From the NCBI RefSeq assembly GCF_900156165.1, contig NZ_FTMY01000003.1, forward strand, positions 186,001 through 250,000: a stretch of 64,000 nucleotides of DNA. Reading direction: 5' to 3'. The notes below the pieces were generated by a model that did not search any database, was not told the origin of the DNA, and saw nothing but the letters and a program-made list of their open reading frames with translations. The DNA is from Pseudacidovorax sp. RU35E (GTDB lineage Bacteria > Pseudomonadota > Gammaproteobacteria > Burkholderiales > Burkholderiaceae_C). Position numbers and translations under genes: made by a program. Positions 42,364-46,646 of this stretch are shown piece after piece (the stretch's first letter is position 1; each line of letters starts with the position of its first letter).

Positions 42364-43911
42364 ATGACCACCCTGCTGACCCTCCATCCCGGCCAGGTCG
42401 ACCTGGCCAGCCTGCGCCGCATCCACCAGGGCGGCCTCACCCTCTCGCTGGACGACAGCGTGCGTGCGGGCATGCAGGCCGCGCAGGCCGCCGTGCAGCG
42501 CATCGTGGACCACGACGACGTGGTCTACGGCATCAACACCGGCTTCGGCAAGCTGGCCAGCACCAGGATCGACCACGGCCACCTGGCCGAACTGCAGCGC
42601 AATCTGGTGCTGTCGCACAGCGTGGGCACGGGCGAGCCGCTGGCGGCCGAGGTGGTGCGGCTGGTGATCGCTACCAAGGCGGTGAGCCTGGCGCGCGGGC
42701 ATTCGGGCGTGCGGCCGGCGCTGGTCGATGCGCTGCTGGCGCTGTTCAATGCCGGCGTCACGCCGCTGATCCCGGCCAAGGGCTCGGTGGGCGCCTCGGG
42801 CGACCTGGCGCCGCTGGCGCACCTGGCCTGCGTGCTCATCGGCGAAGGCCAGGCGCGCCTGGCGGACGGCCGCGTGGTCGGCGGTGCGGAAGCCATGCGC
42901 AGCATCGGCATCGAGCCCTTCGTGCTCGGCCCCAAGGAAGGCCTGGCGCTGCTCAATGGCACGCAGGTTTCCACGGCGCTGGCGCTCGCCGGCCTCTTCG
43001 GCGCGGAGAACGTGTTCGCCTCGGCGCTGATGTCGGGCGCGCTGTCGCTGGAGGCCATCCAGGGCTCCATCAAGCCCTTCGACGCCCGCATCCATGCCGC
43101 GCGCGGCCAGCCGGGGCAGATGGCCGTCGCCGCCGCCGTGCGCACGTTGCTCGAAGGCAGCGACATCATCCCCAGCCATGCCGACTGCGGCCGCGTGCAG
43201 GACCCGTATTCCATCCGCTGCATCCCGCAGGTGATGGGCGCCTGCCTGGACAACCTGACGCATGCCGCCCGCGTGCTGGTGACCGAGGCCAATGCCGCGT
43301 CGGACAACCCGCTGGTCTTCTGCGACACCGGCGAGGTCATCTCCGGCGGCAACTTCCACGCCGAGCCGGTGGCCTTCGCCGCCGACATCCTCGCGCTGGC
43401 CGTCGCCGAGGTCGGCGCCATCGCCGAGCGCCGCATCGCGCTGCTGCTGGACACGGGCCTGTCGGGCCTGCCGCCCTTCCTGGTGCGCGACGGTGGCCTC
43501 AACTCCGGCTTCATGATCGCGCAGGTCACGGCCGCGGCCCTGGCCTCGGAGAACAAGTCGCTCGCCCATCCCGCCAGTGTGGACAGCCTGCCCACCTCGG
43601 CCAACCAGGAGGACCATGTGTCCATGGCGACCTTCGCGGCGCGCCGGCTGGGCGAGATGGTCAACAACACGGCGGTCGTCATCGGCATCGAAGCGATGGC
43701 TGCCGCGCAAGGCATTGAGCTGAAGCGCACCGAGACCACGCCGCGCAGCTCGCCAGCCATCGAAGCCGAGATCGCCCGCATCCGCCGCCAGGTCGCCTTC
43801 GTCGAGCGCGACCGCTACCTGGCGCCCGACATCGAGGCCATGCGCCAGTGGGCGCTGGCCGCCGAACTGCCCGCTCCGCTGCTGACGCTGCTGCCCAGCC
43901 ACGGCGCCTGA
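42364..43911 (+). CDS. hutH: Histidine ammonia-lyase
   Basis: A 515-residue cytosolic enzyme converting histidine to urocanate and ammonia. The MIO cofactor triad Ala144-Ser145-Gly146 is in [14 protein letters not shown], and the catalytic Tyr54 in [22 protein letters not shown] and the C-terminal [13 protein letters not shown] block are intact. The N-terminus ([20 protein letters not shown]) matches family starts, which supports the ATG at 42364 despite the absent ribosome site. It is the first structural gene after hutC, 57 nt downstream. Confidence 0.98.
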
Positions 43912-43959: not shown

Positions 43960-45768
43960 ATGAACGCCCCCGAGAACTTCATCGCTCGCACCGCCGCCGC
44001 CCTCGCCGACCCGCGCGTGGACCCCAGCCGCGTCGTGCGCGCCCCGCGCGGCACCGCGCTGTCGTGCAAGAACTGGCTGATCGAGGCCCCCTTCCGCATG
44101 CTGCAGAACAACCTCGACCCCGAGGTGGCCGAGAACCCGCAGGCCCTGGTGGTCTATGGCGGCATCGGCCGCGCGGCGCGCAACTGGGAATGCTTCGACG
44201 CCATCCTCGAGTCGCTGAAGAAGCTGGGCGAGGACGAGACGCTGCTGGTGCAGTCCGGCAAGCCGGTGGGCGTGTTCAAGACCCATGCGGACGCGCCTCG
44301 GGTGCTCATCGCCAACTCCAACCTCGTGCCCAAGTGGGGCAACTGGGAGCACTTCCATGAGCTGGACCGCAAGGGCCTCTTCATGTACGGCCAGATGACC
44401 GCCGGCAGCTGGATCTACATCGGCAGCCAGGGCATCGTGCAGGGCACCTTCGAGACCTTCGTCGAAGCGGGGCGGCAGCACTATGGCAATGACCGGCCCG
44501 ACGCCGGGCCGCCCCAAGGCGGGCCGCATCCCCTTGGGGGATCGGACGCCGGAGGCGGCCGAGGGGCTGAGTGGTCGGGTCGATGGATCCTGACGGCGGG
44601 CCTGGGCGGCATGGGTGGCGCGCAACCGCTGGCGGCCACGCTGGCGGGCGCCTGCTCGCTCACGGTCGAATGCCAGCAGAGCAGCATCGACTTCCGCCTG
44701 CGCACCCGCTACGTGGACAAGCAGGCCAAGGACATCGACGACGCGCTGGCCCTCATCGCCCACCACACGGCGAAGAAGGAGGCCGTCTCCATCGCCCTGC
44801 TCGGCAATGCGGCCGAGGTGCTGCCCGAGCTGGTGCGCCGCGCCAGGGCCGGCGGTCCCAAGCCCGACCTGGTCACCGACCAGACCTCGGCCCACGACCT
44901 CATCAACGGCTACCTGCCCGTGGGCTGGAGCGTGCCGCAGTGGCGTGCCGCCTCGGCGGACCCGGCGCAGCATGCCCAGCTCCAGCAGGCCGCCGCCGAA
45001 GGCTGCGCCGTGCACGTGCAGGCCATGCTGGACTTCCAGGCCATGGGCATCCCGACGGTGGACTACGGCAACAACATCCGCCAGGTGGCCTTCGACCAGG
45101 GCGTGAAGAACGCCTTCGACTTCCCCGGCTTCGTGCCCGCCTACATCCGGCCGCTGTTCTGCGAGGGCAAGGGCCCCTTCCGCTGGGTGGCGCTCTCGGG
45201 CGACCCGGAGGACATCTACAAGACCGACGCCAAGATCAAGGAGCTGTTCCCGCAGAACACCCACACCCACCGCTGGCTGGACATGGCGCGCGAGCGCATC
45301 GCCTTCCAGGGCCTTCCGGCGCGCATCTGCTGGCTGGGCCTGGGCGAGCGCCACGTGGCCGGCCTGGCCTTCAACGAGATGGTGAAGAAGGGCGAGCTCA
45401 AGGCCCCCATCGTCATCGGCCGCGACCACCTGGACACCGGCTCGGTCGCCAGCCCCAACCGCGAGACGGAGGGCATGAAGGACGGCACCGATGCGGTGAG
45501 CGACTGGCCGCTGCTCAATGCGCTGCTCAACACCGCGGGCGGCGCCACCTGGGTCAGCCTGCACCATGGCGGCGGCGTGGGCATGGGCTATTCGCAGCAC
45601 AGCGGCATGGTGATCGTCTGCGACGGCACCGAGGCCGCCGAACGCCGCCTGGCGCGCGTGCTGGTCAACGACTGCGCCTCGGGCGTCATGCGCCATGCGG
45701 ACGCCGGCTATGAACTGGCCGTGGCCACCGCGAAGAAGTTCGGCCTCAACCTGCCGATGGTGCGCTGA
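43960..45768 (+). CDS. hutU: Urocanate hydratase (with in-frame palindromic insertion)
   Basis: A 602-residue enzyme converting urocanate to imidazolonepropionate using tightly bound NAD. Typical blocks are all present: [35 protein letters not shown], the NAD loop GLGGMGGAQ (214-222), [15 protein letters not shown], and the catalytic-Cys region [13 protein letters not shown]. The protein is about 45 residues longer than the usual 555-560. About 26 extra Gly/Pro-rich residues lie between HYG (174-176) and SGRW (206-209), where family members have only about four. The rest is undisturbed, so the enzyme may still fold. AAGGAGCACC precedes the ATG. Confidence 0.96.
44491..44570. repeat. Palindromic repeat inserted in frame in hutU
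   Basis: The insert reads as nested hairpins: CGGCCC with GGGCCG around a 6-nt loop, then CCCCAAGG paired with CCTTGGGG. It has the look of the CCCCTTGGGG intergenic palindromes of Comamonadaceae. It keeps the reading frame and adds residues from about 178 to 204 of the protein. Confidence 0.75.
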
Positions 45769-45857
45769 GCGACTCGCGCGCTCCGGCGCGGGGGAAGACG
45801 GCGCCACAAAAACCGCTGCCCAGTCCCACCGCATGGGATCGGGTGGTGCACATCGCG

Positions 45858-46646
45858 ATGGCTTTTTTTGATACTGGACGCATGGCCTCGCCTGCGCCCC
45901 CCGTTGCTGCTGCTGCTGCCGCCGTCCCTGCCGCCGACCGCGTGTTGCAGGTGCTGGCCGTGCTGGCGCGGCAGGGCCGGCCGCTCACTGCCGCGGAGCT
46001 GATGGCCCACACCGGCCTGACACGCAGCACCCTCTATCGCCAGTTGGCGCGGCTGCGCCGCTGGGGCTTCGTGATCGAGCGCGAGGGCAGCTATGCCCCG
46101 GGGCCGCTCAGCCTGCAGATGGCGCTGGGCTTCGACCTGGCGTCTGAGCTCATGCGCCAGGCTCGCCCCACCATGGAAGAGCTGGCCCGCCAGTCCCACG
46201 AGAGCGTGGGCCTGATCGTCGCCGTCAACGACCAGGCCATCTGCCTCGACATGGTCGAGAGCCACCAGTCGCTGCGCTGCTCCTTCGAGAAGGGCCGCAG
46301 CGTGCCGCTGCGCGCGGGCGCCTCGGCCAAGTGCCTGCTGGCCCACCTGCCGCCGGCCGCGCGGGCTGCGGTGCTCGATGCGCAGTACGGCGCCGGCACC
46401 GCCGAGCGTGCCGCCGCCGAAGCCGAGCTGGCCGCCATCCGCCAGGCCGGCCATGCGCTGAGCGCCAGCGAGGTGGATGACGGCGTCTGGGGCTGCAGCG
46501 TGCCGCTGATGGGCGCCTCGCACCAGGCGGCCGGCGTGCTCACGCTGATGGCCCCGATCCTGCGTGCGCAGCACCAGGAGGCCGCGCTCGTGCAGATGAC
46601 CGTGGTGGCCGCGGCCCGCATCTCGCGCCGGCTGCTGCTGCATTGA
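45858..46646 (+). CDS. IclR family transcriptional regulator
   Basis: A 262-residue regulator with an N-terminal IclR-type winged HTH (DRVLQVLAVLARQGRPLTAAELMAHTGLTRSTLYRQLARL) and a C-terminal effector domain (SVGLIVAVNDQAICLDMVES, GASAKCLLAH). ATG 45858, ATG 45882 and GTG 45843 are all possible starts; none has a strong ribosome site. It sits between hutU and an amino acid ABC gene pair. It may control that pair or the downstream hutD-I-F-G genes, adding a second layer to HutC. Confidence 0.9.
   Translation: MAFFDTGRMASPAPPVAAAAAAVPAADRVLQVLAVLARQGRPLTAAELMAHTGLTRSTLYRQLARLRRWGFVIEREGSYAPGPLSLQMALGFDLASELMRQARPTMEELARQSHESVGLIVAVNDQAICLDMVESHQSLRCSFEKGRSVPLRAGASAKCLLAHLPPAARAAVLDAQYGAGTAERAAAEAELAAIRQAGHALSASEVDDGVWGCSVPLMGASHQAAGVLTLMAPILRAQHQEAALVQMTVVAAARISRRLLLH

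Follow-up and report, generated by a model that had tools for sequence, protein, structure and literature searches.

Introduction

Palindromic elements that sit in frame within genes are best known from Rickettsia and Wolbachia, where a usual explanation for them is weak selection in small populations. The available sections of the literature report Rickettsia palindromic elements (RPE) and their Wolbachia counterparts (WPE) in frame in many metabolic genes, in which they are tolerated (PMC2229807, PMC3767692, PMC10969869), and describe a Rickettsia guanylate kinase with an RPE as active with an altered substrate affinity (PMC2229807, citing Abergel 2006). Other small non-autonomous repeats include ERIC/RU-1, YPAL/RU-2, the 107-bp Correia elements and the MITEs of Coxiella, and the same sources, in the parts available, mention several that carry open frames fused in frame to genes (PMC2229807, PMC5896051).

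For the Burkholderiales the description closest to the repeat reported here is that of the Beta-proteobacterial Repeat Element (BRE), a name given by Hot et al. (2011, PMC3110155) to an element of about 90 bp from Bordetella and Comamonadaceae which, in the available text, is often arranged in tandem and suspected of past mobility. BRE copies are described there as mostly intergenic and in some cases as contained completely in coding sequences, and the available part of the account does not take up in-frame insertion, frame usage or host proteins (PMC3110155). A further paper treats stem-loop families of Bordetella, and our repeat is not named in its available text (PMC2267715). Our searches of the open-access literature turned up no paper on BRE copies in frame or on the frame that they prefer, and none on repeats within urocanase.

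Results

The window, i.e., the whole 64-kb stretch of Pseudacidovorax sp. RU35E DNA that was analysed, holds a urocanate hydratase gene between two context genes on the same strand:

42364..43911, + strand, aromatic amino acid lyase upstream of hutU (PF00221)
43960..45768, + strand, hutU, urocanate hydratase, 602 aa (ORF with no stop or frameshift; TIGR01228 and Pfam)
45843..46646, + strand, IclR-family regulator downstream of hutU (PF01614, PF09339)

The hutU ORF scores 913.4 bits against TIGR01228, the NCBIfam hutU equivalog with a cut-off of 375, and contains the Urocanase_N, Urocanase and Urocanase_C domains of Pfam, all three in order; two thiourocanate models run on the same ORF both scored below their own cut-offs. 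It is the single HutU match found in the genome (5.7 Mb, 28 contigs). The upstream lyase occupies the hutH position, from which its substrate is presumed. Comparison with congeners places one further feature inside the gene:

44494..44571, + strand, net insertion of 78 bp, 26 codons, residues 179-204 of HutU

These 78 bases are absent from five congeners (G001, G006, G007, G010 and G011) with HutU proteins 96-98% identical to that of RU35E, and in all five the protein match stops at residue 178 and restarts at residue 205 with adjacent base coordinates. The original prediction had noticed a loop of about 30 residues where the family has about 4, together with an insert that stays in frame beside the NAD-binding region. 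Alignment with other HutU bears out the insert, which makes the protein 26 residues longer than those of the five congeners; the lengths were right in kind, and the linker from QHY to the W of the WILTAGLGG strand in fact measures 33 residues in RU35E and 7 in most of the family. The 7-residue linker occurs in 78 of the 80 named HutU loci and in 106 of 115 parsed linkers, a set which includes matches picked for bearing inserts. The frame is indeed kept, the ORF being open throughout the 26 codons, and close relatives are without the insert, among them the closest HutU in the named records, L119, from a metagenome-assembled genome (MAG) labelled Pseudacidovorax. One further candidate, G035, with a match 25 residues short that suggested an insert, was ruled out because its linker is short.

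In RU35E the match to PF01175 (Urocanase, the Rossmann-like NAD domain) resumes at residue 204 and profile position 24, whereas in the insert-free L119 the match begins at profile position 1. This pattern places the insert near the start of the Rossmann-like domain, before the strand leading to GLGGMGG, in agreement with the position first proposed. The urocanase structures 1UWK and 1UWL (molecule named urocanate hydratase, presumably from Pseudomonas putida) align with the remaining protein on both sides of the insert. In 1UWL the linker is short, and the query is aligned to residue 177 and again from residue 203, both at chain residue 163. The loop is probably exposed and tolerant of extra residues.

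The inserted DNA is a whole copy of a dispersed repeat, which we term BRE-like for reasons given below:

44493..44567, + strand, whole copy of a dispersed three-hairpin repeat (BRE-like), 75 nt (covariance model, HMM)
44493..44527, + strand, hairpin 1, 44493-44500 paired with 44520-44527, the loop bearing the conserved CGCCGGGCCGCCCCAAG (alignment fold, covariance model)
44528..44542, + strand, hairpin 2, ATCCCC-TTG-GGGGAT (alignment fold, covariance model)
44543..44561, + strand, hairpin 3, 44543-44550 paired with 44554-44561 (fold, alignment, covariance model)

An HMM built from 33 copies, none of them from hutU, detects the insert with an E-value of 4.5e-9 over 44495-44550, and in the same search, over 2.1 Mb of loci, this HMM also finds the inserts of four other HutU sequences (described below) at 3e-8 to 2.8e-7. 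The covariance model R1 gives the hutU copy 62 bits (E 6.5e-10) as the sole match in the 64-kb window at E<=1; over the RU35E genome this copy scores best, the next reaching 46 bits. The nested inverted repeats pointed out in the original prediction are real, CCCCAAGG and CCTTGGGG being complementary at 8 of 8 positions and the covariance model placing three hairpins in 44493-44567, and its view that the insert resembles dispersed palindromes agrees with the HMM, the covariance model and the matches dispersed through the RU35E genome. A search of Rfam with 44300-44750 returned nothing above the gathering threshold, the best score being 17 bits against 39 (BjrC68).

The three-hairpin structure was drawn by us and then scored on an alignment (A3) of 31 copies of the closest subtype, which align almost gap-free and include the four other HutU inserts but not the hutU copy of RU35E. 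It pairs 92.2% of cells, whereas shuffles give 83.8% and sliding the structure along the alignment gives no more than 52%; 13 of the 22 model pairs have changes on both sides, and none of 500 shuffles reaches that number or the observed pairing level. Compensated changes occur at 7 of the 8 pairs of the hairpin 1 helix among these 31 relatives, and the loop of hairpin 3 is shorter in the hutU copy than in most of them. As single-stranded DNA the insert folds with a z of -2.2 relative to dinucleotide shuffles, of which 5 in 200 are as good. The other four HutU inserts give -1.4, -0.3, -0.7 and -2.1, and folding energy alone is, given these modest values, weak evidence. RNAalifold applied to a mixed alignment (A1) yielded a poor structure, which we attribute to arm lengths that differ among subtypes of the repeat.

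Similar DNA is found in 15 of 15 same-genus genomes at E<=0.01 and in at least 77 of 299 family genomes at E<=1e-9, RU35E being counted in both. Other copies measure 76-92 nt as cut by our patterns. Tandem copies occur in RU35E as pairs 95 and 102 bp apart, and locus L095 (G233:C1:579511-580037) is a tandem array with six copies among the matches listed, 89 bp apart. No donor of the hutU insert was found among the copies in the RU35E genome, most of which belong to a different subtype with a different 3' half, and this may be why none was found. An exact search of genome contigs with a 36-base core gave no match in a collection from which records very near RU35E may have been excluded. A mobilising enzyme for the repeat is presumed. 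The sole PF01797 match in the RU35E genome, the Y1-type transposase-like L304 (G000:C9:167575-167865), lies in a 3.3-kb locus in which neither the HMM (best E 6.4) nor the covariance model detected the repeat.

Two features of particular copies are recorded here. In a subtype ending in GAGGGG (L090-L118), 15 of 33 distinct copies are followed by an ATG five bases after GAGGGG and then by about 20 open codons, as if the right end supplied a ribosome-binding site; four of these 15 lie in one tandem array, where three read into the next unit. At L113:1480-1779 (+) the repeat encodes most of an in-frame leader (33 residues shown before NGFTLIELLV) of a protein that we read as pseudopilin-like.

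The repeat is by no means confined to hutU as a host gene. Of 138 copies collected by DNA similarity, 31 lie in coding-like ORFs, as judged by the codon-position G+C of both flanks; the 138 are loci from searches of RU35E, the genus and the family plus 60 further genus-list positions in rank order, excluding G014 because it nearly duplicates G009, and they represent the better matches to the hutU repeat rather than a random draw, some being the same insertion in sister genomes. For the remaining 107 the test gave no sign of coding, but it is able to miss genes. A wider count finds a coding-like ORF through the copy in 38 of 149 distinct copies, the additional 7 being rows that came from HutU searches, a protein match or chance. 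Pfam was consulted for 20 of these 38 ORFs and named a domain in every one:

carbohydrate kinase, biotin carboxylase, AMP-binding ligase, histidine kinase, CobQ-like, UvrA (L232, L248)
RecQ, RecJ, DnaG, anthranilate synthase (TrpE), Ldh_2, PEP carboxylase, molybdopterin dehydrogenase
M16 and M3 peptidases, polysaccharide deacetylase, cytochrome c assembly, FemAB-like, corrinoid adenosyltransferase

By our reading of the coordinates, the repeat lies inside the Pfam domain, spanned by the match or splitting it, in 14 of the 20. The RU35E genome itself contains a second in-frame copy, L010 (G000:C12:82301-82339 region), in an AMP-binding ligase with the motif NISGGTD that we read as acetoacetyl-CoA ligase. 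It sits at a linker of variable length among relatives, and the repeat is present at the site in none of the 11 relatives parsed from 12 among the matches listed. On a Rhodoferax antarcticus plasmid, a CDS with the annotation Fic family protein also carries the repeat in frame. These hosts do not support the claim in the original prediction that in-frame entry of this kind is a rarity beyond Rickettsia-type elements, and reviews, in their available parts, list other bacterial elements inserting in frame. Separately, the UvrA-family genes L232, L247 and L248 carry in-frame repeats at different sites, the last two both coming from G009 and L247 being assigned to the family solely by its likeness to L232. 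An antisense ORF at L233, at first taken for an in-frame case, proved spurious, and the repeat there apparently lies between two genes that we read as nuo genes.

HutU proteins were also compared with one another. Four other HutU sequences (L121, L171, L211 and L212) bear the same repeat in the same loop, three of the four in the orientation opposite to that in RU35E. Among the 80 named loci the loop inserts are those of L121, labelled Rhodoferax ferrireducens isolate OTU1, and L171, a MAG, both in reverse orientation. The HutU segment is matched at E<=1e-10 in at least 207 of 399 family genomes, and the whole insert-bearing query, among the matches listed, in three: that of RU35E itself, G135 with an insert in the RU35E orientation, and G145 with a reversed one. 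In a tree of HutU, RU35E falls within a well-supported set of seven rows of which the other six have no insert, L121 lies apart from this set, and a third region holds L171, L211 and L212. Over all 114 rows four changes are needed, and strongly supported branches make at least three of these unavoidable. Within the third region the orientation of L211 is opposite to that of L171 and L212, and the insertion points differ by a few codons. These differences make four gains likely, with three as the cautious count, and we conclude that the repeat most likely entered the HutU loop four times. Formally, some of the changes might represent the loss of an insert that was once present, but the opposite orientations and the differing insertion points argue against this.

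Linkers of intermediate length also exist, with 16 residues in G091, 14 in G685 and G458, and 20 in G553, whose DNA holds a different palindrome (ATTCCCGC..CGCGGGAATGACG). Allowing up to one mismatch, this palindrome occurs 50 times in G553, 31 times in G458 and not at all in G057, with a control giving 0. Within the family of G553, 13 of 28 genomes have a HutU match, and the short length is kept in 11 of these 13, all except G553 and G458. An unrelated palindrome has thus entered the same loop once elsewhere, in G553. We also note, in another beta-proteobacterium, a copy of the repeat about 11 bases downstream of the end of a hutU match (L131:2624-2694).

Discussion

The repeat in hutU fits the description of BRE. 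Like BRE, it is dispersed and mainly intergenic with some copies in coding-like ORFs, its 75 nt in hutU fall within the 75-91 bp of the GC-rich BRE unit (PMC3110155, available text), and the tandem habit with few or no bases between units, also described there, is seen in the G233 array and the RU35E pairs. The hosts agree as well, RU35E being a member of the Comamonadaceae. The G+C of the hutU copy is 84%, outside the 63.7-78.9% given in the available text for BRE (PMC3110155). We therefore call the repeat BRE-like, likened by description and not by sequence, as that range describes the Bordetella copies rather than defining BRE. It shares with RPE an in-frame presence in several unrelated genes of one lineage. 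By their available descriptions, however, RPE are about 100-150 bp and belong to intracellular Rickettsia, whereas this repeat is about 75-92 bp, GC-rich and found in Burkholderiales; it works like RPE but is a different element, in free-living bacteria. Compared likewise by description, ERIC, YPAL, Correia elements and Coxiella MITEs have different hosts, and repeated landing in one enzyme loop is not described for them in the text available. REP and REPIN elements with RAYT are also small hairpin repeats and, in the available sources, mostly intergenic, but REPs are put at 20-40 bp (PMC3733652, available part), in contrast to a unit of about 75-92 nt with three hairpins.

We propose the following history for the locus. 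Judging from the sequence comparisons, a non-autonomous, hairpin-forming mobile repeat of the BRE kind very probably inserted into hutU after the split from the closest sequenced congeners. Its survival there may have had several reasons, i.e., a length that kept the reading frame, a repeat with few stops in any frame, a frame that encodes a peptide rich in Gly, Pro, Ser and Ala, and a loop, directly ahead of the first strand in the NAD-binding domain, that accepts additional residues. The product would be a working urocanase with an extra flexible loop, and this loop of HutU would be a repeated landing place, both for the repeat and for an unrelated palindrome.

The use of reading frames bears on how such copies come to persist. 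Among 38 coding copies examined, a palindrome centre was recognised in 35, and 32 of these share one phase, in either orientation; the binomial probability of such sharing (p 1e-12) assumes independent copies, which they are not. The hutU copy of RU35E is one of the three exceptions because its centre lacks one C, although the frame used for its 5' half agrees with that in UvrA, RecQ and RecJ. Stops do occur in the family, but they alone do not set the coding frame: the other two same-strand frames run through the repeat without a stop in 38 and 35 of the 38 copies, and in the similarity set all six frames are open in 27 of 31 coding copies and 62 of 107 other copies. Peptides encoded by these 31 contain 23% Gly, 21% Pro, 16% Ala and 9.5% Ser, and we read the shared frame as the survival of the least harmful peptide. 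Alternatively, it could stem from the chemistry of insertion, i.e., from a preference for targets at a given codon position in GC-rich genes, since the host genes have a strong codon-position bias that a sequence-preferring enzyme could read and since the usage is so extreme. We consider this unlikely, given that two frames are in use across the 5' half in forward copies (11 and 8 copies, with 1 in the third) and the codon phase at the 5' end is accordingly not fixed.

It is also conceivable that the insert was taken into service, with selection maintaining a loop that alters how HutU handles NAD, its oligomer contacts or its stability, as might be suspected from its nearness to the cofactor motif, from longer loops at the same place in several lineages and from the single frame that nearly all coding copies use in each orientation. 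Set against this, most HutU proteins, very close relatives included, do without the insert, the peptides of opposite orientations differ in sequence, and shorter linkers of 14-20 residues exist, some of which may be trimmed remnants. We regard such a role as improbable.

An insert that impairs HutU, making hutU an early pseudogene, is likewise improbable. With the loop left out, dN/dS between RU35E and the five congeners is 0.07-0.10, compared with 0.03-0.095 among the congeners. A value at the upper end of the congener range is what a dying enzyme might show, and points to possible mild relaxation or weak impairment. It is still far below 1, which indicates that the gene is kept under purifying selection, with room for mild relaxation. 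The ORF has no stop or frameshift and scores far above the hutU cut-off, and as the only hutU found in the genome its loss would cost the use of histidine. Seven residues are unique to RU35E HutU relative to the five congeners, none of them near the loop.

Could the insert have arrived by recombination, within a stretch of hutU from another genus? Among the matches listed, the full-length insert does match better in other genera than in its own. The flanks tell otherwise: 90 bases on each side, the upstream segment taking in the first four bases of the insert, are identical to the five insert-free congeners at 78-85 of 90 positions, and to insert-bearing HutU of other genera at 69-76 of 90. 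The repeat has thus most likely moved in by itself, and a recombinational origin is very improbable. No target-site duplication was recognised by eye at the insert. An assembly or sequencing artefact is barely credible, as the site lies inside a 480-kb contig with flanks that match the congeners to within a few bases of the insert, the net gain is 26 codons with the frame kept, the hutU repeat is not the same as any other copy found, and HutU sequences from other assemblies, four in number, bear similar inserts.

Two findings go beyond what was originally predicted. One loop has repeatedly received the same repeat, in both orientations, as well as a second palindrome unrelated to it, and in-frame entries are frequent in this free-living group. 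We tentatively put forward, as a possibility, that the repeat is shaped for life in genes and that the proteins of free-living Burkholderiales are being steadily lengthened at loops, some of which, as in HutU, would be general landing pads for unrelated palindromes. The traits that such a speculative model would draw together are hairpins that fold as DNA or RNA, few stops, one benign Gly/Pro-rich frame per orientation and a right end that, in one subtype, puts AGGGG at a distance of five bases upstream of a start codon.

Because free-living Burkholderiales with large genomes show the same habit, the weak-selection explanation becomes testable. HutU provides natural replicates for this, with one loop, the repeat in both orientations, an unrelated palindrome and close relatives free of any insert, in an enzyme that has a simple assay and a growth phenotype. 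If the frame preference does come from selection on the peptide, it would be a direct measure of what the loop of a folded enzyme accepts.
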